Below, piece after piece: positions 24,259-61,138 of a stretch of DNA of 64,000 bases. Made by a program: the position numbers and the translations under genes. The notes below the pieces were generated by a model. The model saw nothing but the letters and a program-made list of their open reading frames with translations. It made no database searches and was not told the origin of the DNA. The stretch is from Styela clava (lineage: Eukaryota; Chordata; Ascidiacea; Stolidobranchia; Styelidae): NCBI RefSeq assembly GCF_964204865.1, contig NC_135252.1:7647383-7711382 (forward strand), given 5' to 3'. How positions within the stretch are numbered: position 1 is the first letter of the stretch; the number at the start of each line of letters is the position of its first letter.

Positions 24259-24771
24259 GCTTTTGAATTTCTAATTTTATCTTTATAATATATAATTAGA
24301 CTGCAGAATACAATAATAAACATGGCTTGCACTTATAGTTCCCAACAAAACTGAACACATTTTATAAACCAGTAGTCTTGTCACCCAAATGAATTTCATT
24401 TGAAAAATATAAAGATGTCTCTGTTGATAAAAAAATGTTTGGGTTTAGGGCCACTCTACATTGCCCCTTGCTTACATTCACATTATTTTCAATCCGCGTA
24501 AATTGTTAGAATTAGATTAGAAAATGTGTAGAATAGCGATATCGATAATTCCCCTTTAGAATTCACTGATTACAGGCAGCAAAAAGCGTATGGTACCAAA
24601 GTATACAAAGACTTTCAAATAAAAACACTGCTGTTTCTGACACGAAAATCCAAAAAAAGAGAAATATAGGCACATAGTTTTTACAATTTGCACAAAATAC
24701 AGCAAATAAATTAAAATAATATCACCGTTCGACTACTGGAAGAAATCTCAATGACACAGATTACCATGAAT
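24259..24771. other. Intergenic NOP53 upstream region
   Basis: About 510 bp between the NOP53 start and the stop of the next APEH gene, both on the minus strand, so it must hold the NOP53 promoter and the APEH 3' end. TATCGATA at 24540-24547 resembles the DRE/DREF site of insect growth genes; that is only a sequence match. No TATA box is convincing. Confidence 0.35.
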
Positions 24772-26934: not shown

Positions 26935-27580
26935 GATATTATGCTTTAAATAGACCTATAGATAAAAGACTTACGGTATAAGATAAAGGCTGAAATTGGA
27001 GCATTCCAGCTGAATTGATCCAAGTAGAAAAATCAAAAGTTTAACGAGATGTGCCAGGCCAGAGCATCTTTCGTCCGTGATTTCAATTTACACTTATTTC
27101 ATAGTGAATTGCCTTTGTACGAACAGAAATCAAATATATACTAAGTAATACCATTATAAAAAAAACTATCTATTCACTGAAATAACATAATTCTGATTAA
27201 CAATTACACTCTGGAGACGGTACAAAGACATAAAAATGATTGAATTGAAGCTTTTTGCAAAAAAAATTGTGTTTCTATCAGAATGCAAATGAATTCAATA
27301 TTCAAAATTAATATCAAAAATGAATATCTCTGATCAAAACAATACCAACTTTACAAACGTACCATCTACCATGTTGAAGTGGGACAGGATATTTGAACTG
27401 AAATATAATCACAATGTAAATTTTATAAAAAAAATATTATGAATTGAATCATAATCTGATAAATGAATAACTTGGAGCAAAGAACAAATTTATAATTTGG
27501 CGAAGAACGAATTCTGCATGACCATAATTGCAAAATTCACTAACTCTGAATAATAATAACACAAATAAAAAATAACTTAT
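26935..27580. other. APEH A-B intergenic spacer
   Basis: Between paralog A's start and paralog B's stop. From about 27025 to the B stop it is clearly similar to 30390-30947 downstream of paralog C (shared words such as CCAGAGCA, TGATTTCAATTTACA and TTTGGCGAAGAACGA). It is therefore part of the duplicated unit. No coding region. Confidence 0.6.
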
Positions 27581-29710
27581 TTAGTTTAAAGTATTTTGAT
27601 ATTTTTGAAACCACAATATTGTATTCACAAATCCATCTGCTTCAGCATCCACTTTGCTCAAAGGATGATTATTGTCTTTGTATAACAACACTTTACATTC
27701 CTTACCGAGAGCTCTGTATTTTTGCGCCCATCCTTTACCTTGTGAAGGTGGGACTCTCAGATCACAATCTCCAAGCATAAGTAATACAGGTGCTTTTGCT
27801 TTTTCTATGTGGAAAATGGGAGACATTCCCAGCAGAGCCGAGTATGAATCAGAACTTGGTAATGTCTTAAAATCAAACTCCTTCCCACGTTCACAATAAC
27901 ACCAATCTGGTATATCAGATAAATCAGACTTGGGAGCAAGGTTTACAGCAGGGTTTCGGACTACCGTAGCAGAATAAAAATCTGGAAATTGTGAAATTAA
28001 ATGCAATGATAGGAATCCCCCGTGTGATCCACCTGTCACGAAAACTCTAGTAGGGCCCAATTCATTTTTCAGTTTTTTCGACACTTGATGAACATCGCTG
28101 ACATCTTGTTTCCCAATTCTACCTGGGAGCGAGTACACACCATCATTACCAAAACCAACAGAACCTCTATAATTTATGTTAACAACAGTGAATCCAAGTT
28201 TGCACATGCCAACAATGCTGTTCATAAAACCAGCAGAACTGTTAGAATGTGGACCACCATGTGGAAATACCACCAATGCTCTGTTATTTGCCTTCGGTGT
28301 CATTGGCTGGTATAAAATATATTCAGTATCAACATCAGGATATTGTGAATTCTCCAATTCTGGCTTGAATGAATGAACAGACCATTTCATGTCATCAATT
28401 GGTTTACAAGGTTGCATGACAGTTGTCCAATTCATATCTTTATCTTTTTCAAATTTTGCAATTCTTAGTTCTGGAGGAATGGTTGGGGTAGAATGACTTA
28501 CAACAATGACATCATTCTTTACATCTAAGACAGATGTATTACCTGTATAAGTCAGTCGCTTCACTTGACTGCTCTTAAGATCTACAACCAAAGCAACAGT
28601 GTGAGATCTCCAGATACTTGCTAAGAAAATGTAACTGCAATCAATACTCCAACAATTACTTGGTAAATTCATAAAGTAAAGACCAGGAAAATCATTTTCA
28701 GAATTGGAAGACTTCACAAGATCGATGATGACATCCTGCTGTGCAAGTTCTTGAGAGTCGTCTTCCCATGATGGCAAACTTAGAGACATAAGTCTAGAAC
28801 ATTGCATGTGTGGCCCTCCTACACGATTTTCCACAAACACAATTGTATTGTCCTTAGGATGCAAACGTGGGGATCGAACAGATTGATTATCGTCAGACAA
28901 TGTCTTGCAAATCTTTTTATTTGTATGTAAGAAATACAAGGCACATTGACGAATAGGGCAATAACGAAGACCAAGTCTGTATGGTTGTTGCATCCATCCA
29001 ATAAATACAACAGATTCACAATCATGATGCCAAAAAGCCTGGCCCGCTGAGACATCCGAAGGAATAACATCAGAAAAAACTGTGATTTCTTTATTTGACA
29101 GATCAAGTATACATACAGTAGGTCTGTGAGCACCATCCATCTGTTCACCCCATGAATCGTACATGACATGCTCATTTCCAGACTCACAGTCGTCCTCTTT
29201 CTTGCTAGTTGACTTGAAAAAAGACTTTGTCTTGGGTTTCTTAGTTTCAGCAATGTATAAAATCTTCTTTCCATTTTTTGACCATTCTAGTGAACCAAAT
29301 TGATCATTACTGATCACGTCACCATGCTTATCAATATCCTTTAAATTGATATTCAAAATTTTCTTGAACTTGTCCCACACCTCTATGTATTGAACCTTCT
29401 TATTGTTCTTGTCCAATACTTCTCTAACTATGGCCTTCATGTTTCCGCAAGAAGAATATTTTACCAGGAGCTCTTTGGTCAACTCATTTGGAGGAAATTG
29501 AGTTACATCTTTGATAACATCACCGTCAATTTTGAAGCAACAAGACTTCACATATTTTATGTTTTCTTCTCTTTCAAGATCACGTTGCTGCCAGACACTC
29601 TCAAGACCATACTGAGAATCTCCATCTTGCCATATATTGCAACCCAAAATTGTTGGTATTGCAGCAATTTCTCTGTAAACATCCACAACTTTGTCGATTT
29701 TTATATCCAT
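27581..29710 (-). CDS. Acylaminoacyl-peptidase, intronless paralog B
   Basis: Single-exon 709-residue S9C prolyl-oligopeptidase-family enzyme. The propeller region runs to about residue 450. The hydrolase domain shows FPHGGPH, NYRGSVGFG and GGSHGG (Ser562), with Asp650 in GDCDLRVPPSQG and His682 in NNHPLSKV, all in the spacing of human APEH. The start ATG is followed by DIKIDKVVDVYREIAAIP, which aligns with the paralog starts. About 94% identical to paralog C by hand count (about 43 differences), many of them just before and inside the hydrolase domain near residues 588-632. Intronless. Expected to remove N-acyl amino acids from blocked peptides in the cytosol. Confidence 0.92.
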   Translation of the reverse strand: MDIKIDKVVDVYREIAAIPTILGCNIWQDGDSQYGLESVWQQRDLEREENIKYVKSCCFKIDGDVIKDVTQFPPNELTKELLVKYSSCGNMKAIVREVLDKNNKKVQYIEVWDKFKKILNINLKDIDKHGDVISNDQFGSLEWSKNGKKILYIAETKKPKTKSFFKSTSKKEDDCESGNEHVMYDSWGEQMDGAHRPTVCILDLSNKEITVFSDVIPSDVSAGQAFWHHDCESVVFIGWMQQPYRLGLRYCPIRQCALYFLHTNKKICKTLSDDNQSVRSPRLHPKDNTIVFVENRVGGPHMQCSRLMSLSLPSWEDDSQELAQQDVIIDLVKSSNSENDFPGLYFMNLPSNCWSIDCSYIFLASIWRSHTVALVVDLKSSQVKRLTYTGNTSVLDVKNDVIVVSHSTPTIPPELRIAKFEKDKDMNWTTVMQPCKPIDDMKWSVHSFKPELENSQYPDVDTEYILYQPMTPKANNRALVVFPHGGPHSNSSAGFMNSIVGMCKLGFTVVNINYRGSVGFGNDGVYSLPGRIGKQDVSDVHQVSKKLKNELGPTRVFVTGGSHGGFLSLHLISQFPDFYSATVVRNPAVNLAPKSDLSDIPDWCYCERGKEFDFKTLPSSDSYSALLGMSPIFHIEKAKAPVLLMLGDCDLRVPPSQGKGWAQKYRALGKECKVLLYKDNNHPLSKVDAEADGFVNTILWFQKYQNTLN

Positions 29711-30947
29711 CTTTTTTCTGTATTCAAGTATTTTAAAAAGTAGTCTGCACTCTTAGAAGCGAAATATCACATCAAATGCTATGACAGTATGCAGGTTTGA
29801 TAGTGAAATTAATGCAGATAATGAATATTATTGCCAAGAGTGTTCGCAAGATTTTATTTTACATCCACCTTCGGAGTTGTTTAAAAATAATAATTATTAA
29901 TTAATATCTGAATGTATAAATACATGCGTATTTGTTGGACATTTGGGCATAGTACAAGGTGTACTATGTTGGTGTTAAAGGTGTATGTTGCTACTGTAGT
30001 GAAGAAAAATGGTAACTAAATTTATAAACATTTGTGTATTTAGATTTTGTTATTTTTAAACAACTCCGAAGGGAAGATAAACAAAAAAAAAAAGTAACTC
30101 AAACCATATTGCAGTCGTAAAAGACAGCAGGTCAAGTCTGGGGCGAAAGTCTGTAATCCTGTCAGAGAGGTCATATTTGTATAGGCAAATACACTCGTAC
30201 AAGTAACGTTGTTCAAATTGTATTTTTGTGTAATGGTAACGTATCCAAATAAGCAAACTTGCTCCTGCACAGAATCAGTTACATACTGACATACGGTAAC
30301 AATCAAAAATAAAATCTATCTAACAGTACCGGTATGTATTTGTAACATAAATACGGTATACTACTAGGAATCACACATAGCCTATGTAATCAAAAAAATC
30401 AAAATTTAATGAGGTGTGCCAAGCCAGAGCAACTTTTGTCCATGATTTCAATTTACAACAGAAATCAAATAGATACCAATACCATTATGAAAAAAAAACT
30501 ACCGTACCTATTCACTGAAGTAACATAATTATGATTAACAATCACACTCTGGAGTACATAATTATGAAAATGATTGAATTGAAACTTTTTACAAAAACAT
30601 TTTGTATTTCTATCAGAAAAAAAAAAAATGAATTCAATATTCAAAATAAACAAATGCTGGTTAATATGAAAAATGGACATCTTTGATCAAAACAATACTT
30701 ACTTTACAAATTTATGTACCATATCGAAATTGGACTGGCTATTTAAACTGAAATTTTACCACAATCTAAATCAGCATTTTATAAAAGAAATTTATAAATT
30801 AGAACATAACCTGATGAATGAAAAAATTGCAACAAAGAACAAAATTATAATTTGGCGAAGAACGAAGTCTGCGTGACCATAATCACAAAATTCAATTACA
30901 GTACATTGTATAATACACAATAAAAATAGTAATTCTATTGAAGTGAT
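29711..30947. other. APEH B-C intergenic spacer
   Basis: 29711-30035 matches the upstream region of paralog C (33078-33264 plus 33603-33685) except for an insertion there. 30390-30947 matches the downstream region of paralog B. The 350 bp between is unique in the window. No coding region. Duplicated promoter sequence is expected just left of 29900. Confidence 0.55.
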
Positions 30948-33077
30948 TTAGTTTAAAGTGTTCTGATATTTTTGGAACCACAATATTGTATTCACAAATC
31001 CATCTGCTTCAGCATCCACTTTGCTCAAAGGATGATTGTTGTCTTTGTATAACAACACTTTACATTCCTTACCGAGAGCTCTGTATTTTTGTGCCCATCC
31101 TTTACCTTGTGAAGGTGGGACTCTCAGATCACAATCTCCAAGCATAAGTAATACAGGTGCTTTTGCTTTTTCAATGTGGAAAATGGGAGACATACCCAGC
31201 ATAGCGGAGTATGAATCTGTACTTGGCAATGTCTTGAAATGAAACTCTGTTCCACATTCACAATAACACCAATCTGGTATATCAGTTGAATCAGACATGA
31301 GAGCAAGGTTTACCACAGGATTTCTGACTACTGTAGCAGAATAAAAATCTGGAAATTGCGAAATTAAATGCAATGATAGGAATCCCCCATGTGATCCACC
31401 CGTTACAAAAACTCTAGTAGAGCCCAATTCTTCTTTCAGTTTTTTCGACACTTGATGAACATCGCTGACATCTTGTTTCCCGATTCTACCTGGAAGAGAG
31501 TAGACACCATCATTGCCGAAACCAAGAGAGCCTCTATAATTTATGTTAACAACAGTAAAGCCAAGTTTGCACATGCCAACAAAACTGTTCAGAAAACCAG
31601 CAGAATTGTTAGAATGCGGACCACCATGTGGAAATACCACCAATGCTCTGTTATTTGCCTTCGGTGTCATTGGCTGGTATAAAATATATTCAATATCAAC
31701 ATCAGGATATTGTGAATTCTCTAATTCCGGCTTGAATGAATGAACAGACCATTTCATGTCATCAATCGGTTTACAAGGTTGTATGACAGTTGTCCAATTC
31801 ATATCTTTATCTTTTTCAAATTTTGCAATTCTTAGTTCTGGAGGAATGGTTGGGGTAGAATGACTTACAACAATGACATCATTCTTTACATCTAAGACAG
31901 ATGTATTACCTGTAGAAGTCAGTCGCTTCACTTGACTGCTCTTAAGATCTACAACCAAAGCAACAGTGTGAGATCTCCAGATACTTGCTAAGAAAATATA
32001 ATTGCAATCAATACTCCAACAATTGCTTGGTAAATTCATAAAGTAAAGACCAGGAAAATCATTCTCAGACTTAGAAGACTTTACAAGATCGATGATGACC
32101 TTTTGCTGCGGAAGTACTTGAGAGTTGTCATCCCATGATGGCAAACTTAGAGACATAAGTCTAGAACATTGCATGTGTGGCCCTCCTACACGATTTTCCA
32201 CAAACACAATTGTATTGTCGTTTGGATGCAAACGTGGGGATCGAACAGATTGGTTATCGTCAGACAATATCTTGCAATTCTTTTTATCTGTATGTAAAAA
32301 ATACAGGGCACATTGACGAATAGGGCAATAACGAAGACCAAGTCTGTATGGTTTTTGCATCCATCCAATAAATACAACAGATTCACAATCATGATGCCAA
32401 AAAGCCTGGCCAGCTGAGACATCCGGAGGGATAACTTCGGAAAAAACTGTGATTTCTTTATTTGACAGATTAAGTATACATACAGTAGGTCTGTGAGCAC
32501 CATCCATCTGTTCGCCCCATGAATCGTACATGACATGCTCATTTCCAGGCTCACAGTCATCCTCTTTCCTGCTAGTTGATTTGAAAAAAGACTTTGTCTT
32601 AGGTTTCTTAGTTTCAGCAATGTATAAAATCTTCTTTCCATTTTTTGACCATTCTAGTGAACCAAATTGATCATTACTGATCACGTCACCATGCTTATCA
32701 ATATCCTTTAAATTAATATTCAAAATTTTTTTGAATTTGTCCCATACCTCTATGTATTGAACCTTCTTATTGTTCTTGTCCAATACTTCTCTAACTATGG
32801 CTTTCATATTTCCACAAGAAGAATATTTTACAAGAAGCTCTTTGGTCAACTCCTTTGGAGGAAATTGAGTGACATCTTTGATAATATCACCGTCAATTTT
32901 GAAGCAACAAGACTTAACATATTTTATGTTTTCTTCTCTTTCAAGATCACGTTGCTGCCAGACACTCTCAAGGCCATACTGCGAATCCTCATCTTTCCAT
33001 ATATTGCAACTCAAAATGGTTGGTATTGCAGCAATTTCTCTGTAAACATCCACAACTTTTTCCATTTTTATATCCAT
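30948..33077 (-). CDS. Acylaminoacyl-peptidase, intronless paralog C
   Basis: Single-exon, 709 residues, aligned end to end with paralog B without gaps. FPHGGPH, NYRGSLGFG, GGSHGG (Ser562), Asp650 and His682 are intact, so it should be catalytically competent. Differences from B concentrate in the substrate-side segment (for example NPVVNLALMSDSTD against NPAVNLAPKSDLSD) and in a propeller loop near residue 315. The pair arose by duplication of a ~3.3 kb unit that includes flanking DNA. Both frames remain open, which suggests selection or a recent origin. Confidence 0.92.
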   Translation of the reverse strand: MDIKMEKVVDVYREIAAIPTILSCNIWKDEDSQYGLESVWQQRDLEREENIKYVKSCCFKIDGDIIKDVTQFPPKELTKELLVKYSSCGNMKAIVREVLDKNNKKVQYIEVWDKFKKILNINLKDIDKHGDVISNDQFGSLEWSKNGKKILYIAETKKPKTKSFFKSTSRKEDDCEPGNEHVMYDSWGEQMDGAHRPTVCILNLSNKEITVFSEVIPPDVSAGQAFWHHDCESVVFIGWMQKPYRLGLRYCPIRQCALYFLHTDKKNCKILSDDNQSVRSPRLHPNDNTIVFVENRVGGPHMQCSRLMSLSLPSWDDNSQVLPQQKVIIDLVKSSKSENDFPGLYFMNLPSNCWSIDCNYIFLASIWRSHTVALVVDLKSSQVKRLTSTGNTSVLDVKNDVIVVSHSTPTIPPELRIAKFEKDKDMNWTTVIQPCKPIDDMKWSVHSFKPELENSQYPDVDIEYILYQPMTPKANNRALVVFPHGGPHSNNSAGFLNSFVGMCKLGFTVVNINYRGSLGFGNDGVYSLPGRIGKQDVSDVHQVSKKLKEELGSTRVFVTGGSHGGFLSLHLISQFPDFYSATVVRNPVVNLALMSDSTDIPDWCYCECGTEFHFKTLPSTDSYSAMLGMSPIFHIEKAKAPVLLMLGDCDLRVPPSQGKGWAQKYRALGKECKVLLYKDNNHPLSKVDAEADGFVNTILWFQKYQNTLN

Positions 33078-33264
33078 CTTTTTTCTGTATTCGTATCAGT
33101 ATTTTAAAAATATTATGAACTATTAAAAAAGAAATATCACATCGAGTTCTCTGATAGTGAAATTAATACAGATAATAAATATTATTGCCAAGGGTTTATT
33201 GCAAGATTTAACTTCACATCCACCTTGGGAGTTGCTTAAAAATAATATTTATTAATAACCGAAT

Positions 33265-36157: not shown

Positions 36158-36702
36158 TTATTTGCTTATAGCTTTGAAGTTTATGCTCAGATGTCTCAGC
36201 TCTGGAAGGAGTTTCTTCTGATGATATTTTAATTGTTTGACCATACGGCGGGTTCTTTTTTGAAATTTAGGTCCATGTTCACTTCCACCTTCATGCACCA
36301 AAACCCCAGCTGCGTGAACCATTTCGTGTATTATTATTCCCAACCTTTTCTCCCTAGATTTGATAAAAACGATTGAGAAGTCTTTATATATCGAAACTTA
36401 TTTATCCGTTTCCTCTGGCTCATTTTTTGACGACTTCATGAAAATGTTTCGTAAAGCTTCGAAATGTATCCCTGTGGATTCGCAGTCGTCGCAAGTCCAT
36501 TTCGAATCTTCTTCGGGGTTTATTTCAGGAGGTTCTCTTAGACATTTTCTGTGAAACTAAGTTCCGCATGCCAGGCATTTATGCATTTTTCACCGTCGTC
36601 AGGCATACGGCAACCGCAAAACATGTCACAAAACCATGTAAATGTTGGGTTTTCAAATCCAATTCTCGATTCACAGCAATGTTGAAATAAAGCCTCCATC
36701 TA
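36158..36702 (-). pseudogene. Decayed PHD-finger plus SprT-like metalloprotease gene
   Basis: Minus strand. A frame from an ATG at about 36702 encodes WFCDMFCGCRMPDDGEK. After a frameshift near 36560 it continues KCLACGT(stop)FHRKCLREPP and WTCDDCE, which together read as a C4HC3 PHD-type zinc finger. A second stop near 36400 separates this from VSIYKDF and GIIIHEMVHAAGVLVHEG, then SEHGPKF: an HExxH zinc-protease motif with a downstream third His, as in SprT/Spartan/GCNA domains. It ends at 36158. One frameshift and two in-frame stops make it a fossil unless unseen introns remove them; I found no GT/AG solution. I do not know a named family with exactly this order. Confidence 0.65.
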
Positions 36703-41550: not shown

Positions 41551-44500
41551 TTATCGCCCTCGTCCATATTTGTCATCAGTTAATTGAACTTCAATTCTTC
41601 GACCATCAACTTCTGCACCATTAAAATGTCCTACAGCCAGAATTGCTTCTTCTGGTGTTTCATAATGAACAAATCCATATCCTTTAGAACGGCCATTATC
41701 GGTTTTAATGTCAGCAAATGTTACGTTTCCTGTCAGAAATAGAGGATTATGAAGGCGGGGTTACATTGCATCCTGCCCAGCATGTTTGGCGAATGAAATA
41801 TCGGAAAACATTTTCGAAATACAGAACACTCTCAAGTTGTAGAGTTAGTTGATCTAAAACAGGGGTTCCTAAACCGCGGCCCGCGGGTCGATTACGGCCC
41901 GTGTATCGATTTAAAATGGCCCGCCGGAGTTAAGTGAAAAAATTTAACGGTTAAACTTTAACCGTGAATAAATGCTAATACGTTTAACGCTTCATGTATT
42001 TAGATACCGCCAATGATCAGTTATTGAATCAATAATTATGATCAGCTGATGCGCGTATTTAAAAATTCAATGCTAAATTCATACAAAAGTCAAATAAACA
42101 TGTTTAAAAAAATGAATCTAATGAAAGTGAATCCACGGTGTTATCCAGTTATATTGTAGCCCACAAAATCACTAAAAAGAATCGCTCGTTTGTTGAAGTG
42201 GAATTTTTCCGCGAATGTATGCTGCAAGTTTTGGAAGTCATTTCTCCCGATTTAAGAAGTTAATTTTTCAGCATCAGTCTTTCTAACAACACAATTATGA
42301 ACCTTAACAAAACAAAACTTCGGTCCGGACTGCTTGACAGATAATCACTTGAATGCGTTGTTGCGAATATAATGTACTGAATTGGAGCCACGTAAAGAAC
42401 ATCTGCCCTAATTACACCTACAAAAATATATAATTGGTATATACAAAAATAAACAACCAAATCATGTTGGCATTTCGTTTTTTTATACTTATTTACATTG
42501 GGATGTTTTTTGTGCAACAAAACAAGCCATAAGTAGCCTCATTTATACGAAGCCGTATATTTCAGATGAGCAAGTAACTTCAATCAGTTATCATAACAAA
42601 CTGCGATGCTAGGTGTAATAATATCAAGCTTGCAGTCTATTTTAGTGCCTAATTTTTAAAATTTTCTCAGCCGTGGCGTCGAGCTCTTTTTGTCGCTCAC
42701 CTTTTCTGGCCCGCGAATATCCTTTAGCTTCGAAATTTGGCCCGCGGTCAATCAACTTTGGGAACCTCTGATCTAAAACAAGGGTTCCCAAAGTTGATGG
42801 ACCGCGGGCCAAATTTCGAAGCTGAAGGATATTCGCGGGCCAGAAAAGGCGTGACAGCACGGCAGGTGTTTCGGGCGCACTAAAGCGCCTGAGAAAATTG
42901 GCTACTTATGGCTTGTTTTGTTACACAAAAAAAATCCCAATGTATACATAAAAAAAACGAAATGCCAACATAATTTAGTTGTGTATTTTTGTATATACAT
43001 GTTATTAGGGTTGGCTCGAAATCAGATGCTCAAACGTGGCTCCAATTTATTACATTGTATTCGCAATAACACATTCAAGTGATTATCTGTCAGTCTGAAC
43101 ATAAGTTTTGATTTGTTAAGGCTCATAGTTGTGTTGTTAGAAAGACTGATGCTGGAAAATTTAATTTTTATATCAGGAGAAATGACTTCTAAAACGTGCA
43201 GCATACACTTGAGGAAAAATTCCTTTCAGCAAACGACAATTCTTTTTAGTGATGTTGTGGGCTACAATATAACTGGCCAATAACGTGGATCCAATTTCAT
43301 TCGACATTTTTTTGAACATGACTTTTGTATAAATTTAGCAATGAATTAAATTTTGAAATACGTGCGTAACTGACCATAATTTGAAGAATGCTTAGTCTCA
43401 TAATGGCACTTAATATTGAATTCCTTTACAACTGGAATATTTTGTTGGCAAGGATGACAAATCGTCTGATTCTTTTCAATAAAGAAATGAGAAGGCTGCC
43501 ATGTCTGTTTCCTGTGTCTAGTTTTCGTTTTTTTACATCTTTAAGCTTTCCTAATGTAGGGCTGATACCTAAAATAGTGCCATATGTAATCCTAATACCG
43601 GTACTTATAATTGAGATACCGGTATAATTGAATTGTTACGAATATACACAAGCTTAAATTGTGATAATGATGTAACAATTGGCGGTATCTAAAAAGCAAA
43701 AAGGTAAACTCATAATGTATTAAACATATTAGTATTTATTTAGTTAAATTTGGCGGGCCATTTCAAATCGTTAAGGCTCGCGGTTTGGGCACTCCTGATC
43801 TAGCAGTTGAATATTCATGAATACTGTTATTGTACAAAACCAATTAAAGTTTTGATGTTTAGGCTCATGTCTTTGTAGATATGCTAGTGCTCAAGTTTTT
43901 TTCAGGACGACCCCAAGCACAACTTTCAAGTGTCCAGTGTGACCCCAGGTCAATATATATATTTTTCATGAAACTTTAAGAGCTTCTTTCACTGGACTTT
44001 TGAGTTTAGTCATGTGGTGGTATTAAGTGAAATAAGCTAAAACCAAACAGTGATTTCACAATAAGCACGTACATTTTCTATAGCATGAGCATAGAGCAAT
44101 GCTGATGGGCCTGTTTTACAGTAAGTCATGGTGCAAACTGCTAAATTTAAATAGTTGTCAAATCTTAAGATGATTTGTACATCCATCCTCTACCATACCT
44201 CAGCGACCCCATGACCTGTTTGCGACCTTACCTACCCTACCTATAACTCCGACCCAATTTGGGGTCCCCTGTGCTAGTGTTTAACATTTTCATGCGTTGC
44301 CTCATGTGCTTAACATTTTTATGTGTTACCGTATGAAAGGTATAAAATTAGTTTTAGGAAAATCAATAGTGCCCAAATTTCAACCTCAGATAAGCTAAGA
44401 ATTAGGTCTGAAACATACCAACTCTAGAAAATATTTCTTTCAGCCTTTGCCATTGCAAACTGAATGGAAGATTTCTGATGAAAAGTGAGGTTTTTGGATC

Positions 44501-47500
44501 CCTATCACCACCTCTTCCATGATTGCTACTCCTTTTCAGTTCATTAGCTGAGCTCAAACTTCGATCCAGATCCCGTATTCTGCTGTCAACACGTGCTATG
44601 TCCCTGAACATTTACGTTAAGTTACAAAAATAGATACGGGTGAACATGCTGCCAGTCCATCCTTTATTTTATCAAAATAAGGATGGCGATAAGAGTAGGG
44701 TATCATTGAGCTAGACTGCTAGAGTAATCACCAAAAAATACCTGTTGTCTCAGTGGTAGTGACGAAAAATTTATCATCATGAAATGAAAATTTTCAGACT
44801 AAGAAATGCATCATAGACAACAGGATATGAGATAAAGCAAATGAAAGGATATTCACTAATGTTTGGAGAAGTATATGAAAAATGCCATTTCTTACATTTC
44901 TATTCGATCTCTATCTGTCATTTGTAATCCTGTCGATCGGCTACCATTACTGTATTGTTGATTTCCCAGTCTATTACTGCTGCTTGAAGAATTTCCTCTC
45001 ATGGAATCATAGACATTGGTACCTATTTATAAATATACATTAAGTACATGATGTACATGGTCAATACCTCAGTCAATTGGAACATATTAAGAAAGTACAA
45101 AACTTTTGTGTAAAGCATCCAAAATTACTAAACTTTTGCGTACAAGACAATCATACTCTAAATACACTTTTTTATTTTCGTGTATTAGTAATTGAAGAAT
45201 TTATCATCTATCGTTTCGGGTCACTCTGTATGATAGCACTGTCTAATTATTCCTAAGGTTGCCTAATAGACAGGTAATCCATAAGAATCTGATTAAGCAT
45301 TATAGATGGAAATGTATGATGAAAAAGGTGATATTTGTACACCTAAATATGAACATTCCAGGTAAGAAGATGCAGCACTCAACTTCATAACAAGCGCAAT
45401 CGAAAAAGTCCATTTTCACAGCAAATATTAGTACAGGGAGTCCTCGGGTTACGACGGTCGCGACTTACGCTGTTTCGAGGCTACGAACGCGCACTCCATA
45501 ACGATGTTTCGAGGTAACGAATGTATAAAAATATAAAAGATAACACTGTACTGTAATATCTAAGCCCTTAAACTGGATCATTGTGATCAAGAAAATCTGT
45601 GCTTTGGGCTCATTGGTTTTCGTCATTTACATCGTGAATGACGTAGTAGACAATTGCGACATATTACGATTATGAACGACTAATCACTAAGCTTCAGTCA
45701 CATGGTATACAGTTTCAGTGATACTGTACGGCGTACGCCATTTTGGTTGTTTAAGCCGGGTTTTCGTAACTTCTTTGATCGTTTTTTTTTTAACTTTTTG
45801 CCCTTTGTTATGGACTCAAAGCGTAAAACAGATGTTTCTGATACAGTACGATATGTATAGAGTAATTTATGTATTGTACAGTATAATGTTCCGACTTGCA
45901 CTAAAATTCGGGTTACACCGCTTCTCAAGAACGGAACAACGTCGTAAGTCGAGGACTCCCTGTATATCGTACTAATCAATTATTTATTTTATAAAAAAAT
46001 CTGGAATATTCAGCTATTGTCTATGATTCCAAGAAACTTACGTGAATGCTGTGGTAGTAAGCCAGAACTCATAAGACTTGTCAAGCTTGCAGCCAATGGT
46101 GACTGTTTAGAGTTCAAAGAAGAAAGTTTAAAACCGAGAGAGTCCTGAACAGGCGGTTGATTCATCGGCTTAAGAAGACCTGGTATTCCAGACAAGTTTC
46201 TTCCAGCTAAAAAGATTGGAAATCATAAACAGTGTTCACTTTCAGTATTGAAACTATGTATAGTACAGGTAATTTGATATTATTGTTATAACATTTAGAG
46301 TCTATGCTTCACATCAGGGGTGTGCAACCTTCAATAAAGGAGGGCCAGATACAAATAACTAGCTGAAACTGCAGGCCGCATCTTTACTTAACATAGGCTT
46401 TCTAATACTTGTGGACACAATCTTATGACATGCGTTGTTCGCTTCGGCTCAGGTATATATGCTTTGCACAAGTGATTGGAATTACTCGCACATACTAGAT
46501 TAAAACCTCATTTTGCGGGCCGCACACCATTGGGTTGCACATTTCTGCTTTTCATCATGAATCCCATAACAATATTGAAGGGTTCATGTCAAAATAATCA
46601 ATGACAATTGGGATTAAAAACGTTAAAATAAGAATTTGAAAAGTAGTCAATTTAGTAGAAATTTCAATAATAGTAGATTCAACTGATTTTTAAACATATA
46701 TTTTAAGTTATTAGTTTCTTTGATCCATCCTCTCATAATGCTTGTGTCTCTTCTTTAAGAATACACAATGTCAATTGTCGAAATTCACTGGCCTTTTAGA
46801 AATTACGCGTCAAAATCATAAAACGACAACTTGATGGCCATACAGACAATATATTTAAAAAAAATACATACAATTCAAACCACTTTCAAGGAGTTTTTTC
46901 TTAGCTGCCAACATTTCTAGTTCCACAATATCCAAGTTGCTTTGAGAAGGTGCTGTTAAACAATATCAATATAGATTACGACATCAAAATGAATTTTGCA
47001 TTTTTTAACTACGGCAGGTATATTTTAACTGTAGGAAACTATAATTGCAATAAGCAAAAGCCTACTGCAATAGTTATCACTTTTCCTATGGCAGTTGTGA
47101 AAATTACCGTAATTTTGAGATAGTCTCAGTCTAAAAGCAACTTGATAGATGGGTTTCTGTTGGAATTTTTCAAGATTTATGAAGAATTACTAATGATTTC
47201 ATCAAGATTTACCATATGTGAATCTGTAGCAATAGCTATTGATTAATTATTATTCTAAGGAAATACATTAGTTTAATGATTGTGGGATTTAATATGTCAA
47301 TGCATTTATTACACATGATATATATAGTTAGATGGGAATGAGTTGGAAAATTTGTAGACCTTCAGAAGTAAAAAGAAAAAAAAATAACTACCAGTGAGGG
47401 ATTCCAGTTGGGGAAATTCAGTGAAGCAAATTAAAATTTGTTGTCTCAGTGGTAGTGACGAAGATAATATCATGTTACAAAAGATATTCTTTTGTCATAC

Positions 47501-50500
47501 TACATAGGAATGCATCATTGACAACATATATTTTTAATGATACGCAATGGTTAAAAACACCAACCATTGAGACCGAGTGACTGTGCCGGTGTTACAAATA
47601 AAATTTTCAAACCTCTCAAAGGGTTATCTCCAGACGCTAAAGCATTTAAGTTGAGGGCTGGACCAAGGCCTTGTAAACCACTGGGCAGCTCCTTCTTGGA
47701 TGATCCAACACTTTCTCTATCCAATCTAACCACCATTGGCCTGTCATACAACTTTTGATCATTGAATAAGGCTGAATTAGGTTTGTTATTAAAGAAAATA
47801 CAAAAGTAGAGAGTACAAAAAAAATACAGCATCAAAAATATAAAAATGCTACCAATTTGCTGTTGAAAATAAAAATGTTGGAATAAATGTACGGAAAGGA
47901 TACAGATTGCTTGTAGTGCTTCAAGTGGAGTTTCATAAGTAATTGTTGCCATTCCTCGACTTGTGTTATCATGGTTCAGCTGCATATCAATTTTCACAAT
48001 AGTTCCAGCAAGTTTGAAAACTTCTTTCAGTTTCGAGTACGATACGCTATAATCGAGCTGAAAGAATTTTTTTCAGTTATTTCATGTAATTGTGCCTAAA
48101 CTGTGGAATTATAAATTCAGCAATCACCCATAAAAATTTCGACAAAGGTGTTCTCTGCATCTTGCAGAATCAGTATGTTGATAATCTGTAATTAAGGTAC
48201 CTTACCTCCAAAAGGTCACTTTAATATTACTGGTAGTGGTATATATTTATGAAATACGGTACTACAGTTTATATAGATATATATAGAGATGGGCAATTTA
48301 GAATAATAAATCCAGAAGGATCTGAATCTCAAAGTATTCAAATTCAAATCCAGACGGACTCATGAATTTTTATATTTCCTGCTTCTAATTTATTAATCAA
48401 AGACGAGTGTTTTCTTTCGCATCAAAATCTCTTTGTTCGATTATATTCGCATTTCCGTAAAGGCGGCAGACATCAAACACGGTAATCTCACCCCGCATAT
48501 TCAGAATAAGTAGGCGGTGATGAACACCTCACGGCGAAGACTCGTTATTACTTTCTAGTTAGCATATAATAATAAGTATTGATGTCGACGTACAACTTAC
48601 ATTGGCAACAAAAATAGTATCTGTGGGCTGATTTCCATGAGTAAGTTCTAATATCGTCTGATTAATATTTCTTCCAGAACTAAAAGAACCCATGGATTGC
48701 TGTCTATCATCCTGGTTAAAATGAGACTGTGGTTGTGGGCCATGTCCAGGCATGGGTGGAGGTAATGACATCAAAGACTGTATGTGGCCTGGTCTGTCAT
48801 GTGGACCTCTGCCCATTTGATTTTTATTTGCATCACGCCGCATAGATCTTTTCACAAGGTCACCAAAAGGATCCTAAGATAACAAAAAAACAAACATTTA
48901 GAGATGATTCCTAAAAATGCTAGAGGTAGTTAATTTTGTTTAGGAGACTAGGCTATAGAACTAACATTTCTATTATTTATAAACTACCTAATCTTTGATT
49001 GTAGCTACGGTATATGGTTAGTGTAGAAGTCAAATGAGGTTGTCTCAGTGGTAGTGACGAAACATATAATTACACCATTGTAGAGTTTCTTAACCCTTCT
49101 GCAATATCATGTAATACATCATCGACAACCAGCAAACTTTTCATTGAGAATCTAATCCAACATAGGCTTTCTACTAATGTTGAAGGCTCAATATATAAAT
49201 GATGCAACTGAGCAGTAAAGACTAAAGCATTCCTTCCTTATCCATTCTCATCAATCCAGTATTAAAAGGGATCGGATAGGTTAGATAATGATTAACGTAA
49301 ATACTAAATATGATATACCTCTTTCACGACTAATTTTCTATCGTTTAACATGTATCCATTCATTTTGTCAACGGCATCTCTCATCAATTCCTTTGTTTTA
49401 AATTCGACAATCCTGCATGAATACGAGTACAAGATTTTTATTCCTATTCAATTATTTATTCAAGTCAGGTACCACTTCCCTTGTAATCATTGAGTTAACG
49501 GATTTTGATGTGATCAAGGAAGCAATTGAATCAACGGCTAAAGTATACCCATTAAAAAAATGATCGGTATGAAAAACAAGAACAGCACAAAGTTCATTAG
49601 GGACCTGAAGCGCTACAATTTCAAGCCTTAAAAATCAGAAGTCGAAATGGTCAATCAATGGGTCAGTAAGAAATTCGAGCAAATTGATAAAGCTATATGA
49701 TAAAAACTGATGACGGTAATTTGGCTCCCGTACTTTGACTACAGTAGCAGAGGGAAAATCTGGCCTTCAACGACAATCAATGCTATAAGAAGGCAGTGCA
49801 AGTTGAAGTTTGTATTTATCTAGCTCCACACAAGAATAACCCAAAATCAAAATTAACTTTGGAATCACCAAAAAGCAAAACAGAACAAGATATTTATTAC
49901 GGTAGATAAACCAATCAACGTCAAAGTAGAGGTTGGGAAATACTGATGGAAAAAATACCCGACCAGGTCAGATAAGGTCAAACAATAGTTTCCAAGGCAT
50001 GAAAAATCTTGCTAAATATCAACTTTGTAGCAGCAGCAAAATCTGAATAGCCCACAATAAAGACGTGTTCTAAACTTGACACTGTGTAGTCTGAGTCTTC
50101 CATGATTCATTTCACCTTGACAATATCAAATCAACTAAACTTATTTTCTGTCAACAATGCAGTTGCTAATTCACATTGAATTTCTGTGCATGTGCTCTAA
50201 TTTGATATTCAGTGAATTACTTCACTTAAACAACCCAGACAGGATATACTCCAGGATGAAAATATTACGAAAAAATTATCTCTGACAAAGTTACTGACCA
50301 TCAGAGCAAAGTTTACAATCAGTATAGCAGTCAGCAGTGGAATAAAAGCAACAGAAACATCGCACAATGTCTCAAATATGGACTTACTCTCCATCCATTA
50401 CTTCTCATTGAAACTCGAAAGCAAATTTTTATCATAACATATCAATGTAACTTACCCATATCCCTGAAGAAATGAATGAATTTGAAGAATGAATTTGTAA

Positions 50501-52981
50501 GTTCATCAGCAATACAAGTTGAATCCAAACAATGTGAAACAATTCGAGAAAACAAAAATACCACAAAGTTAAATAAGGAATTCAGTGAATTTCTGAATTA
50601 TTACGCATGACATAGCGCTTGATATTTGGTGAGATCAACTCAAACAAGGAGTAAATCGAATACTTGAGTATGCTTCAATAATATCTTTACTTCGTAAATA
50701 AATTACTTCAATGAAATAAACAACATACAAACACAAAGGTAATTTCATAATCTAGCTTCTTTTGACATTATCAAGGAAGATATAAATGTAGTATTCTGAC
50801 TACAGAAACGGTATCCGAGATATACCATATGGGAGGTCAAGATAACATAGCCGAACAATCAGAAAAACAAAACTGTTTCTTGAGCATCGATTCAGCAGTA
50901 AATGATAATATTTCCATATCCTTTCGATATTTTCAAATTTGGAACACAACAAAAGTGGACACCTTTGGTAATATGATAAAAGTATAGTCAGGGACAATAT
51001 TGAAACCAATGCATATCTAATGGCAATCCGTTAATCCGTGGGGAAGGGGATGGTTAATTAAGAAACACCCATTAAAGATATCTTGTACACAATCTCATTG
51101 TCACAATTATTCGACCTAAGCAAACACGAATTTGGCAAGCAAACTTGTAAAATATTCTTCAAAGTCAAAAGTTTCTGAGTGGAAATATAAATCGATTAAT
51201 AAATTTCCAAGCCAAAATTATATGAAAAAATGAGAAAACAATTTCATTGCATTATAACGAAAGTAATTTCAATTTACAGGTGATTATGAGACTAACAAAG
51301 TGAAACAAGTTGTACCTAGTGTCTTTCACATTTAAGAGAAACACCAACAAATCAAATTGCGAGAAGCAAAAACCTTCCAATAAGCCTTGCTGTTCCAAGA
51401 GAGCAAATTAAAATATCAATAATCGTTAGAGACCAATTCAAATGTCGTGCAATATGACCAGCACTTTCAGTAAAACGAATTATGAAGATTACCAATCCTT
51501 CAACACCAGTTTTCTCTACAAGTTGAAATAATCGCTGTGACTATTTTGGAGGTCTTAATAACAAAATCTGATAACAAGCCAAAAAGCAATATTGAGACAT
51601 TGGCCTGTAACGCCTCTAACATGTGTCTGCTTGTAAAGTCAGCACTCTGCTACCTTTATTCAACAGTAAGAAATTTACTGACCTTCGAATTACCAGCTTC
51701 ATCATTCATCAGTTCGACATAAGTTACAGAATCTGTACCAACTGCAGACAGTAGAAACAAAAAACGATTGAAGGGCGATATACGAGGGTAAATAACAGCG
51801 TTATTTAATTGGGGGAGTGGGATCAACTTTTGAAACTCGGAAGGGGAATTTAGATTCACCAATGTCGGTGTGTTTTCACTGCTTTCAGCATTCTTTTTCC
51901 AATTAGCATCGTGCTTTGCTCATGGAGTTGGGGGATGTGCAGCCGTATGATACACTGATCTATTTCTCAACGCATATGCTACTCAATACATATACTTTTG
52001 TGTTACATTGCTGATACCTATTCTAAAGTTCGTCAATAGCTGCAGTAATGTGCAGCGACTTTTTAGATTAGTGTTTGCAAAGAATCGAAGATGACAGTTG
52101 GTAAGTAGGAATTTTTTAAAGTTTGAAAGTTGGTAAGTTTTAAGTATGGTATATTTCTAGAACATTGTAGAGCTGAAACAATGTAGAAAAAATGCATATT
52201 TTTAGAATTTTCTTTGTACAAAAGAGCATTCATTTTCAGATTTTCATGAGGGCAATTTGAACACACTCTCCCTAAAAAGTGAGAAGTATATAAAGAATAT
52301 GAGTACACTGGAATATAGTAATGTGCGAAACAATTTACAAACACCCTATGTATTGCAATGTCATGTTCCAAATCGATGCCATGAACAAAGTTTGTAATTT
52401 ATTCAACCAAACCAAGCACCTTAGAACTAAGACTGTGTGAGTCCGACCATGGAACATTATGGGGTGAATTTTATAAAACATCACCAGGGAAATTAGATGA
52501 CAGAACGACTAAATGGCAACTGTAATCAGACTAAAAAAATAAAGATTAATTACTTTGCTCTCGAAAAAGATCCTTGAGAATCTGCCATTTTTGATCATAT
52601 GGAATATTGCTCACAAATATTCGATTATATGGAGGATTTTTGTTTCCTCCAGGTCTGCTTCCAATAATATCTTCTCTTGAATATGGTGTTGGTCGAGATC
52701 TCTCTCTTTCGCGACGTCGTTCTGCATGTCTTGGACTTCCGTCGCTACAATAAAAAACATGGTTGCATAATAGTTGAAAAAAAAATTGAGTTTCAATATT
52801 TTGAAAGTTATGGTACCATAGTCATAATTAAGTTTATTTTTTCCCATTCCGTAAAAAATAACATACGAAATTACCAAAATACAAAACTGAAAACCATTAA
52901 ATTTGAAGATCAAATCGTTAGATTAGGTTACATACCGGTACTGAAGTGGAATGGATCAAACACTCACTTTCTGCCATCCAT
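41551..52981 (-). CDS. hnRNP M-like RNA-binding protein, three RRMs
   Basis: Thirteen coding exons in transcription order: 52981-52968, 52744-52554, 51741-51683, 50463-50456 (8 nt), 49412-49319, 48873-48601, 48057-47904, 47771-47613, 46952-46872, 46206-46042, 45022-44896, 44603-44419, 41729-41551. All are GT/AG and in frame, giving 562 residues. RRM1 (about 46-121) has RIFVSNIPYDQKW; RRM2 (about 207-281) has TIFVANLDYSVSY; RRM3 (about 480-555) has SLFIRNLPFSLQW and RSKGYGFVHY. These mirror vertebrate hnRNP M/MYEF2 in order and in the Leu-Pro-Phe-x-x-x-Trp phrase of RRM3. The long Met-Glu-Arg repeat region of human hnRNP M is absent; a Ser/Leu/Gly linker replaces it. Expected role: nuclear splicing regulation. 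Introns host three snoRNAs and several transposons. The start codon is the least certain point. Confidence 0.9.
41860..42770. mobile_element. hAT element with transposase remnant (copy 1)
   Basis: Left end CAGGGGTTCCTAAACC and right end TTTGGGAACCTCTG, flanked by a perfect 8-bp duplication ATCTAAAA (41852-41859 and 42771-42778). GGCCCGCGG tracts lie inside both ends. On the plus strand near 42150-42250 a frame reads AHKITKKNRSFVEVEFF and ECMLQVLEVISPD, then breaks. This resembles the N-terminal part of hAT transposases of the ZBED5/GTF2IRD2 type. It lies in the last intron of the hnRNP M-like gene. Confidence 0.85.
42779..43797. mobile_element. hAT element, inverted neighbour (copy 2)
   Basis: Begins CAAGGGTTCCCAAAG directly after the duplication of copy 1 and ends TTTGGGCACTCCTG. 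Flanks ATCTAAAA and ATCTAGCA share six of eight bases. Its interior matches copy 1 in reverse complement. The minus strand at about 43140-43210 encodes VLEVISPDIKIKF, parallel to the transposase fragment of copy 1. The two are therefore opposed copies of one family side by side. Confidence 0.78.
43890..44271. mobile_element. Probable degraded hAT insertion
   Basis: A perfect 8-bp repeat TGCTAGTG flanks it (43882-43889 and 44272-44279). The right end reads TTTGGGGTCCCCTG and the left has CAGGACGACCCCAAG about 15 bp in, so the inverted ends are weak. Same intron as the preceding two elements. Confidence 0.5.
44741..44824 (-). ncRNA. C/D box snoRNA, SNORD70-like, copy 1
   Basis: Minus strand, in the intron between hnRNP M-like exons 12 and 13. 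The ends CCTGTTGTCT and AGACAACAGG form a perfect terminal stem. In order: C box ATGATGC, D' CTGA, C' ATGATGA, D CTGA. The 16 nt ending one base before box D are complementary to 18S rRNA GGUAGUGACGAAAAAU. By the D+5 rule the target is the A of GGUAG, which by my count is human 18S A512, the site guided by SNORD70 in vertebrates. Conservation of the guide across three copies supports function. Confidence 0.88.
45434..45962. mobile_element. MITE with TA target duplication (pogo/Tc1-like)
   Basis: The ends CAGGGAGTCCTCGGGTTACG and CGTAAGTCGAGGACTCCCTG are inverse complements with two mismatches, flanked by TA on both sides (45432-45433 and 45963-45964). Second-order repeats of CGAGG(C/T)(T/A)ACGAA lie inside the left end. 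529 bp, no transposase. In an hnRNP M-like intron. Confidence 0.82.
46315..46547. mobile_element. Short hAT MITE
   Basis: CAGGGGTGTGCAACC at the left and GGTTGCACATTTCTG at the right are near inverse complements. GGCCGCA words lie inside. Flanks CTTCACAT and CTTTTCAT are an 8-bp duplication with two mismatches. 233 bp, in an hnRNP M-like intron. Confidence 0.72.
47440..47525 (-). ncRNA. C/D box snoRNA, SNORD70-like, copy 2
   Basis: Minus strand, in the intron between hnRNP M-like exons 8 and 9. Terminal stem GTTGTC/GACAAC, C box ATGATGC, box D CTGA. The guide before box D is complementary to 18S GGUAGUGACGAA (12 nt), the same target A as copy 1. The internal D' and C' boxes are poorly conserved. 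The middle differs from copy 1 while stem, C box and guide are kept. Confidence 0.85.
49038..49130 (-). ncRNA. C/D box snoRNA, SNORD70-like, copy 3
   Basis: Minus strand, in the intron between hnRNP M-like exons 5 and 6. Terminal stem GGTTGTC/GACAACC, C box GATGATGT, box D CTGA. The guide is complementary to 18S GGUAGUGACGAAA (13 nt). At 93 nt it is the longest copy, and its internal part is unrelated to the other two. Confidence 0.85.
49413..51682. other. Large introns flanking the microexon
   Basis: Apart from the 8-nt exon at 50456-50463, these 2.3 kb show no other supported feature; short open frames have no conserved protein signal. I looked for further C/D snoRNA patterns and found none convincing. 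Confidence 0.5.
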
Positions 52982-57989: not shown

Positions 57990-60643
57990 TTAAACAAGTA
58001 CACAACATGATCCTCTGTTACCACCACTGGGCTTGCCAGGTTTTTTTGTAGGTGCACACTGCCGTCTGTAAAATAAGGTTCCCAAAACTTATTATACTTC
58101 AGGAAACAATGCTTTGAAATCTCACAGTGTGATGTATGAAAATGATAAAAAACGGTGATATTGGATTGCTTCAACATTTCTTAATGTCTACTGTAAGAAA
58201 AGCCTAAAAAAAAGTCCGAATAGAATATAAATAAACTTCACCCACCTTATTAATCGAACAACGTCTTGAAATCCTTTATCTACATTTTGCGGCGGATCCT
58301 TGGCACTCGTTTCGATATAAGGTATCTAAAAGTAGCAAGCAAGCTGCAAACAGTGGTTGATTCATGGAATATAATTGGCAGGATTTAATTGAAAGCAGGG
58401 TTAAAAAATTTCTAGTAGAAGCGGACAGTTGTTTTGTTTATGTGAATAGAGAATAAAATGATGAGGTATACAAACTTTAAATCTATCGGCCATATCTCTT
58501 CCTTGTTCTTCAGTTATGCTCCTTTGGTGAATTAGATCAACTTTATTCGCAACCAGAAGCATGGGAAAGGTTGTCCTAAAATATATGACCATTTTTCAAG
58601 GTGATGGTATCAGTTAAAAAATTGAGTTACTTAACTCTCTTGAGTTTCAAAATAATACTTTCCTTCAATAAGAAAATGAATGGTGTTTTAATATGGGAGC
58701 ATCCAAGATACAACGAAGTGCTTTATAGAATTTTCCATTCATCACAAATCTTGCAGGTTACAATTAGGGCTGTCCAAGCGAATCGAATATTCGAAATCGA
58801 ATCGCAAATTATTCGAAGTGCTTTTCGGCCAATTAACGAATCCCTAAAATTTGGTACAAAATGAGCCTCACAACCACCTTTGCAACACGTTTTTCACCGG
58901 GCAAGCAAAAACATGTTCCAATCGCTTTCTTTGCTGTAAAAAGGTCTCTCTCTCATATTGCCCGGTGACATGTAATTATCCATTTCATGCATGGTTTTAA
59001 ATGAAAAGTTATCGGTAACAATGATTTAAAGATGAGGTTTTTGAGAGAACACAAGAAGAAAAGAGCAAATTTTGTGTCAGCAAAAACGCCAGTTCTATAA
59101 ATAGAATCAATTTGTAGCTGTTGAGTCAGTAATCATAGGAATATGGTACTGGACTGAAACACGTTTTGGAGGTCCAATACCTTTTTTCAATAGAATTTGT
59201 AATTTCCTCTAATGGCAATACTTTGTTTCATCCATTTATTGCTATGACAAATAATTGCACTCTTGTGAGTTGATGGCTGTTGTACAGCAACAATATGGTC
59301 ATCAAATTATAATGTCATCAAACTAGCTCTGAATTTTTGAGTTCCCGAAATGCAATTTTGAATTTTATAGGCAACAGTTATATCTATATTAATAGTTGTT
59401 TATCATTTTACTGAAAAATAACACAAAGAATATCGGGTTAATAATACTAATGATAATAGGATTAAAATAGCAACTATGGGCATTAAAAGAATCTGTGCAA
59501 TTTCCAACTCTTAAAACTTGTTAGTTTTCGAAACCCTAATTTTTTGACCAGTTCAAGGAGGCTTGTAATCTCCTTTTATAAACACTGGAAACATAGGTAT
59601 GCAAAATATTTGCAATAATTTAGATATAGCTGCACATACGTTATCACAATATTGAAGAGGAAGTTTTTATTGTACATTAGTGACAAATTTAGGATTGCGC
59701 AATAATATTCGATTATTCTGTTCGATTCGACAAAAATGTTCGATTCGAATCAAAAAAATATTCGATTTTGGACAGCCCTAGTTACAATGACTCCTCTTGA
59801 AATAAAAGTATGCACGATTAAATGGGTAATGAAGATAAAAAAAATATGATAGAAAACAAAATATTTAAAATAAAAACAATATATTTTTTCAAATATGAAT
59901 AAAGAAAAGTTATGTGTATGAATGGAATTTTTTTACAAGCTCTTTTTTACATACTTATCTTTAACACGCAATATCAATTCATGAAACTGAGGAACATTCT
60001 CATAACTTGATTTATCTGTTACACTGTATACGATGAGAAATCCATCACCTGAAAAATATAAAAATGTTATGTGCTAAATTTGTCTAGATTCCTATTATAT
60101 TCACATTTTAGTATTCGACATTTAAATCTAGATAAAGAATATTGAATGTAATTTTGCCATATTTGAATGCCTTTTTGTCGTGAAAATCCAAGTAGGTGCC
60201 ATATAGTGCTTTTCTGAACCATTGGACATGAAAGATGAAATAACATACCCGTTCTCATATATTGTTCTCGCATCGCGCTGAATTCTTCTTGACCAGCTGT
60301 ATCTAACACTGTTTGAAAGTAAGTTATATTACAGGACATTAACAGCAGATTTCCAATTAATAGGAATAAGAAAATGCCTAAAAACACTTCAATGCAGTGA
60401 AGACCACATAAATTAACTTTATTAAAAAACTGAGAACAAAAACTGCTTACCATCCAGTATACACCATTGTCCATCGATGTCTGTATGTTGAATATAGGAA
60501 TCTTCAATTGTAGGATCATAATCTTCCACAAACATTTTTTGAAAAAATTGAATTGTCAATGCGCTTTTCCCTACACCACCATCTCCAACAACAACAAGTT
60601 TATATGTTGTTAAATTTTCATTGTGATTGGGAATGGTTGCCAT
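57990..60643 (-). CDS. MRAS: Ras-family small GTPase M-Ras
   Basis: Six exons in transcription order: 60643-60451, 60308-60249, 60048-59955, 58575-58476, 58325-58246, 58065-57990. Frame is kept, giving 200 residues (human 208). Seen: P-loop GDGGVGKS at 20-27, switch [10 protein letters not shown] at 42-50, DTAGQE at 67-72, NKVD at 126-129, ETSAK at 154-158, and prenylation box CVLV at 197-200 after another Cys. The N-terminal extension before the P-loop, [14 protein letters not shown] and the [11 protein letters not shown] phrase single out M-Ras from H/K/N-Ras and R-Ras. Known role: membrane GTPase upstream of RAF/SHOC2 signalling. The tail is shorter and less basic than in vertebrate M-Ras; Cys196 could be palmitoylated. 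A hAT element sits in the intron between exons 3 and 4. Confidence 0.95.
58765..59780. mobile_element. Non-autonomous hAT element in M-Ras intron
   Basis: Perfect inverted ends TAGGGCTGTCCAA and TTGGACAGCCCTA with a perfect 8-bp duplication GTTACAAT (58757-58764 and 59781-59788). Both subterminal regions are packed with TTCGAT/ATCGAA words, as often seen for transposase-binding repeats. 1,016 bp, no transposase frame. Confidence 0.92.
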
Positions 60644-61138
60644 TTTGATTTGTTTCAGTTGAATATCTTTATAAAATGTCCACTATTTGCAAATCTTTGT
60701 AGGTATTCTGCAAGCTGGGTCGACAGGTACGGTACTCAGCTGGTTCAATTTAAGTTGTCATGTTGATTTAGTAAACAATAGCTTATATTCTGAAAGTAAC
60801 AATATGATGGAGATTCATTGACCGTTTGGAATACTGTAATATAAAATATCGATCATCTTCCGGTAACTACGAAGCTAAACCAACAGTTCTATAAAGTTCT
60901 TAATGCAGTGATGTAAAACTTCATGATTATGAAATCTTATCAAATCAACGGCATTAAAAACATCTCTCGGTTTGATTAATAGTCAGTAAACATTTGTTGT
61001 CTAGGCACAGTCTGTCAAACAGTCAAAGTCAATTTCTGATCTGAACCCTCACGTAATATCTGGATTGCACGAGTAATCGGCAATAACTCTCATATAACCT
61101 TCTCTCAATAATTAAAGTCAAGTACCGTAAAATTTGTA
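60644..61138. other. M-Ras upstream region
   Basis: About 500 bp between the M-Ras start codon and a LINE copy. Presumably promoter and 5' UTR. No TATA box, initiator or additional exon could be assigned with confidence. Confidence 0.35.

Follow-up and report, generated by a model that had tools for sequence, protein, structure and literature searches.

Box C/D small nucleolar RNAs (snoRNAs) encoded in introns are freed once the intron has been spliced out. They assemble into particles with SNU13, NOP56, NOP58 and fibrillarin and target methylation to the base that pairs with the fifth nucleotide upstream of box D (D+5). One of them, SNORD70 (RF00575), which we take to be the same RNA as HBII-234, is hosted in vertebrates by NOP58. 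Here we describe three elements of this kind, c1, c2 and c3, in a 64,000-nucleotide window of the Styela clava genome (C3:7647383-7711382; assembly of 376,610,584 bases in 379 contigs), where they lie in three introns of an hnRNP M-like gene.

In chicken, NOP5/58 is listed as carrying two copies of HBII-234 (introns 3 and 6), likewise in more than one intron of a single host, and HBII-95 in introns 8 and 9 (PMC2653536). Multiple copies in one host are usual for C/D families: human families are described as residing mostly in one host, within which they are thought to have spread by recombination (PMC8178906), and the same is described for chicken paralogues (PMC2653536). U14 in introns 5, 6 and 8 of chicken HSPA8 and HBII-108 in introns 5, 7 and 9 of chicken GNL3 (PMC2653536) resemble the S. 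clava locus in having three copies in one gene, but differ in both the snoRNA and the host.

The S. clava elements share with vertebrate SNORD70 the guide, the boxes, the terminal stem, the target and the intronic location. In contrast to the vertebrate case, the host is an hnRNP M-like gene, there are three copies with differing interiors, one of them (c3) scores below the Rfam threshold, and NOP58 of this genome is an uninterrupted frame without a SNORD70 motif. NOP58 as the host is not a defining feature of the SNORD70 family. As judged from the sequence, it is very probable that c1, c2 and c3 are SNORD70-type box C/D snoRNAs encoded in introns, that they guide methylation of the residue equivalent to A512 of human 18S ribosomal RNA (rRNA) and that they go back to old duplication within their host. 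Here a known type of RNA has an apparently new host, and the host is the interesting part.

Three snoRNAs with an identical guide core

The first copy, c1 (44741..44824, minus strand), is 84 nt long and has the C box AUGAUG, the D box CUGA, a terminal stem of 9 pairs and a 16-nt guide. The second, c2 (47440..47525, minus strand; 86 nt), has a 7-pair stem, one pair of which lies outside these ends, and a 12-nt guide, and c3 (49038..49130, minus strand; 93 nt) has a 7-pair stem and a 13-nt guide. In all three, AUGAUG, CUGA and the closing terminal stem occur in the right order, with CUGA flush with the stem, and the block comprising guide, D box and stem is identical at 23 of 23 nt. The seven stem pairs common to the copies are paired in 21 of 21 cells; six are invariant, and the outer one is U-A in c1 and c2 but G-C in c3, a change of both bases. 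By eye, D' (CUGA) and C' (AUGAUGA) are canonical in c1 and look degenerate in c2 and c3, with a predicted hairpin between them. RF00575 matched c1 (44738-44827, minus strand, 59.9 bits) and c2 (47434-47531, minus strand, 56.5 bits) above its gathering threshold of 50.

Within the window, TTCGTCACTACCACTGAGACAAC occurs three times, always at c1-c3. A descriptor consisting of the C box, CTGA and a stem of at least 7 pairs matched exactly c1, c2 and c3, whereas 100 dinucleotide shuffles averaged 0.12 matches and never gave more than 1. The 11-mer TCGTCACTACC was likewise found three times, compared with once in 100 dinucleotide shuffles pooled. A model built from the three copies and run on the window without filters gave them 92.2-104.5 bits. 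The next of the 24 matches listed (19.5 bits, E 0.18) lacks a C box and was rejected as a fourth copy.

A predicted common target in 18S rRNA

Guide pairing was computed on a eukaryotic 18S rRNA of which PIVK01000085.1 (L001) carries the first 937 nt (RF01960, 784.1 bits). The D-box guides of c1, c2 and c3 form 16, 12 and 13 continuous Watson-Crick pairs with the target GGUAGUGACGAA, and D+5 of all three falls on A471 of this 18S. By comparison, the best guide runs in 200 shuffles per copy were 9, 9 and 11 nt, respectively, and the next best D+5-anchored run on the same 18S was 5 nt. No second guide was found upstream of D', as no D+5-anchored run there exceeded 6 nt on the 937-nt 5' part. PIVK01000085.1 is labeled as a Rhodospirillales metagenome-assembled genome, yet its 18S stretch (positions 1-937, minus strand) is eukaryotic, and it appears to be a contaminant or mislabeled.

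G509, A512 and C517 are published 18S sites with overlapping guides (PMC5612246), and human Am512 and Cm517 are given as the counterparts of plant Am468 and Cm473, with no yeast entry (PMC11542601). Since position 509 must be G and position 517 C, the first A of GGUAGUGAC is residue 512; this is the base opposite D+5 and corresponds to the published human Am512. The initial annotation had proposed minus-strand C/D snoRNAs in three separate introns of one gene, with a shared terminal stem, C box and D box and with guides of 12-16 nt to the 18S adenosine equivalent to human A512. Rfam, the box descriptor, the stem pairing, the GT-AG model of the host described below and the guide register combined with the published positions bear out each of these points.

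The host is an hnRNP M-like gene

We modeled the host by hand as 12 exons on the minus strand (41551..52744) with GT-AG introns and an open frame of 557 aa from the first modeled exon to the stop. The exons are located at 52744-52554, 51741-51683, 50463-50456, 49412-49319, 48873-48601, 48057-47904, 47771-47613, 46952-46872, 46206-46042, 45022-44896, 44603-44419 and 41729-41551. On the same strand, c1 lies in the 10th modeled intron (44604..44895, 292 nt, GTAAGA...GTTCAG), c2 in the 7th (46953..47612, 660 nt, GTTTGA...TAACAG) and c3 in the 4th (48874..49318, 445 nt, GTATAT...TCTTAG), at distances of 71, 87 and 188 nt from the 5' splice site, respectively.

Three RRM_1 stretches were detected in the host protein by Pfam. 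Among the best 60 of 85 PDB matches, the best single-domain ones are RRMs of hnRNP M (2do0, 3.9e-23; 2dh9, 2.1e-17; 2dgv, 3e-17), and the overall top match is a PABP chain (6r5k, 1.7e-32). On its domain matches the gene appears to be of the hnRNP M / MYEF2 type and is here called hnRNP M-like, in line with the initial annotation. An hnRNP M-type host for SNORD70 was not found in the open-licence literature searched and is apparently unreported; in the relevant passages of three papers that pair hnRNP M with snoRNA terms, hnRNP M figures as an RNA-binding protein and not as a host (PMC11460701, PMC7518892, PMC11028025).

Additional features were observed in this gene. An apparent 8-nt microexon (50463-50456, minus strand; GGATATGG), predicted from the hand model, is needed for an in-frame first RRM. 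The last intron contains nested inverted repeats (41904-43773) around a hairpin at 42729-42818, resembling a foldback element; the hairpin itself resembles Rfam mir-9261 (62.4 bits, below the gathering threshold of 86). A MITE-like sequence of ~530 bp (45432-45964), with 25-bp terminal inverted repeats starting TACAGGGAGTCCTCG, lies within the intron at 46041-45023.

Guide copies and NOP58 in the whole assembly

The 16-base motif of guide and D box, TCGTCACTACCNCTGA, matched the whole assembly three times, at c1-c3, and its reversed-pattern control did not match at all. A looser pattern, running from the C box through CACTACC to the D box, gave 8 matches compared with 15 for the control, and only c1, c2 and c3 combined a stem of at least 7 pairs with a guide longer than 7 nt. 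The other five matches, in four places, have 0-5 stem pairs and 7-nt guides and were rejected as a fourth copy. Judged by motif, the A512 guide thus has its sole home in the assembly in the hnRNP M-like gene, although such a search could miss a strongly changed copy. The guide/D stretch, 18S and 28S found no match in a viral contig collection, nor did c2 in a plasmid collection, both of which hold few animal sequences.

The NOP5NT domain has two matches in the assembly. One belongs to a single uninterrupted ATG-to-stop frame of 547 codons (C9:6833774-6835414; L008 1498-3141, plus strand), whose product matches residues 1-545 of human NOP58 (7mq8_SB, 7.2e-202), the best NOP56 chain scoring 1.3e-96. 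Searched against the assembly, this protein matched its own frame once at full length. The remaining matches were four pieces on C10, spread over ~2.1 kb as in an intron-bearing gene. By elimination, and because of its NOP5NT match, we take the C10 gene for NOP56. Since the 547-codon frame is uninterrupted and matched once at full length, NOP58 has no intron in its coding region here; the gene may have an intron in the 5' untranslated region.

No Rfam snoRNA scored above gathering in the 9.8 kb around NOP58 or in the NOP56 region. CACTACC is absent from either strand of the 9.8-kb NOP58 region and occurs once in the NOP56 region, without a longer guide. The box descriptor gave one match in the NOP58 region, which lies within the NOP58 frame on the opposite strand and lacks an A512 guide. 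The only NOP58 gene found in the assembly therefore lacks the SNORD70 motif.

Probable spread of the copies within the host

Blastn between the introns returned a block of 23-24 nt covering guide and D box, a stretch of 18 nt shared by c1 and c2 on the side of the C box, and a few 10-mers. In tests of 60-nt flanks, the 3' flanks of c2 and c3 were similar (P = 0.005), and the other five of the six comparisons gave P >= 0.177. Tests of the interiors gave P = 0.007 for c1-c2, 0.397 for c1-c3 and 0.27 for c2-c3. The one flank test and the c1-c2 interiors hint at residual similarity. A recent segmental duplication was rejected, with little similarity between the introns beyond the snoRNA unit, and for the same reason the duplication would be either old or unit-sized. 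The copies probably spread by old duplication among the introns of one host. Intron-to-intron duplication, as put forward in the initial annotation, agrees with the usual route for C/D families (PMC8178906), but it is deduced from copies between which little similarity survives beyond the unit. The core is identical amid largely dissimilar flanks and interiors, which suggests, for three sequences from one genome, that selection acts on all three copies.

Proposed mechanism and alternative explanations

We propose that splicing of the hnRNP M-like pre-mRNA would free the three introns, which would then be trimmed to the core protected by the snoRNP. The D-box guide of each RNA would pair with its 18S target, where fibrillarin would methylate the adenosine opposite D+5 (human A512). 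The copies would be redundant for this one site and apparently form the whole supply of the A512 guide in the genome, having probably spread by old duplication in a lineage whose NOP58 offers no coding introns to house them. The sequences fit the established C/D pathway at every point. Expression, processing, methylation, the equal use or redundancy of the copies and their history are what we infer from the sequence. The known C/D guide mechanism is left unchanged by the finding.

Several observations weigh against this proposal. The mammalian preference is for ~70-80 nt between snoRNA and 3' splice site, and the distances here are longer (137 nt for c1, 487 nt for c2 and 164 nt for c3). In a 16-kb scan with all Rfam families, c3 (49034-49135) reached 36.2 bits (E 0.019), below the RF00575 gathering threshold, and is therefore termed SNORD70-like; membership of a SNORD70-like family, which the initial annotation had claimed for all three, is thus backed by Rfam for c1 and c2, and c3 is best regarded as a diverged relative tied to them by the identical core. 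Covariation of the stem is limited to one pair and was reached by 182 of 500 shuffles, and so counts as weak evidence when taken alone. The fold z-scores are -3.19, -1.89 and -1.34 for c1, c2 and c3, respectively, and the 18S used for guide pairing is that of PIVK01000085.1 and not that of S. clava. Finally, the RF00575 search of the whole assembly scored 60 of 211572 candidates and found c1 and c2 only, c3 being absent at E <= 0.001; diverged copies elsewhere may therefore be missed.

The below-threshold score of c3 and its apparently degenerate D' and C' could also mean that one copy, or two at most, functions as a guide, with c3 the weakest and decaying. We consider this improbable, as C box, D box, the 23-nt block and the terminal stem are intact in all three copies, while most comparisons of flanks and interiors are no more similar than shuffles. 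Action mainly in cis, through pairing of the elements with their own introns and an effect on host splicing, has a reported precedent in SNORD2 of EIF4A2 (PMC10324135), and the host is of a splicing-factor type with copies in three of its introns. However, 14 of 200 shuffles did as well as the best of 12 pairing tests (three copies, two sides, two parts), and this explanation is very unlikely. It is even harder to believe that the elements belong to SNORD11 (HBII-95, RF01182), which also resides in NOP58 and has an overlapping 18S target stretch (PMC5612246). The SNORD11 model does match c1 (24.5 bits) and c2 (24.9 bits), but these scores are far below its gathering threshold of 55. SNORD11 targets G509, three bases away, and its guide register is shifted accordingly from that of c1-c3, whose register puts D+5 on an A.

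The host clearly differs from vertebrate NOP58. Because of this difference, and because no motif copy was found elsewhere, NOP58 included, a host switch, i.e., a move from NOP58, is likely on the sequence evidence. In an attractive scenario, the coding introns of NOP58 disappeared, either by being lost from the gene or because a retrocopy took its place, and the copies in the hnRNP M-like gene were left as the only source. It is possible, if somewhat short of an even chance, that the A512 guide moved in its entirety from NOP58 into three introns of an hnRNP M-type gene in this lineage in step with the loss of the NOP58 coding introns. If so, a guide RNA would have been forced to change its host once the old one lost its introns, and one rRNA mark would be tied to the expression of a splicing factor. 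There is nearly an even chance that no switch occurred here, SNORD70 never having resided in an ancestral NOP58, which would then have acquired it in the vertebrate line alone. Movement of snoRNAs between hosts is known (PMC3511168), and the comparison covered this genome and no relative that could polarize the change; we found no evidence here against vertebrate-only hosting, which is as open as the host switch. Of the host switching claimed in the initial annotation, the different and, by motif, exclusive host stands and a switch is likely, though either of the two hosts may be the older. In either case, the guide is retained, in three copies at another locus, in a genome whose usual host gene has no coding introns, and ideas about the mobility of snoRNAs among broadly expressed hosts (PMC3511168) become testable in related genomes.

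Other features of the window

Three tandem open frames on the minus strand (24775-26955, 27584-29752 and 30951-33095; 727, 723 and 715 codons) each contain APEH_N and Peptidase_S9 domains, as in acylaminoacyl-peptidases, and appear to represent a local triplication of an intronless gene. Further minus-strand frames match Nop53 (20813-21301 and 23794-24270), SprT-like (36161-36397) and Ras (60425-60682).

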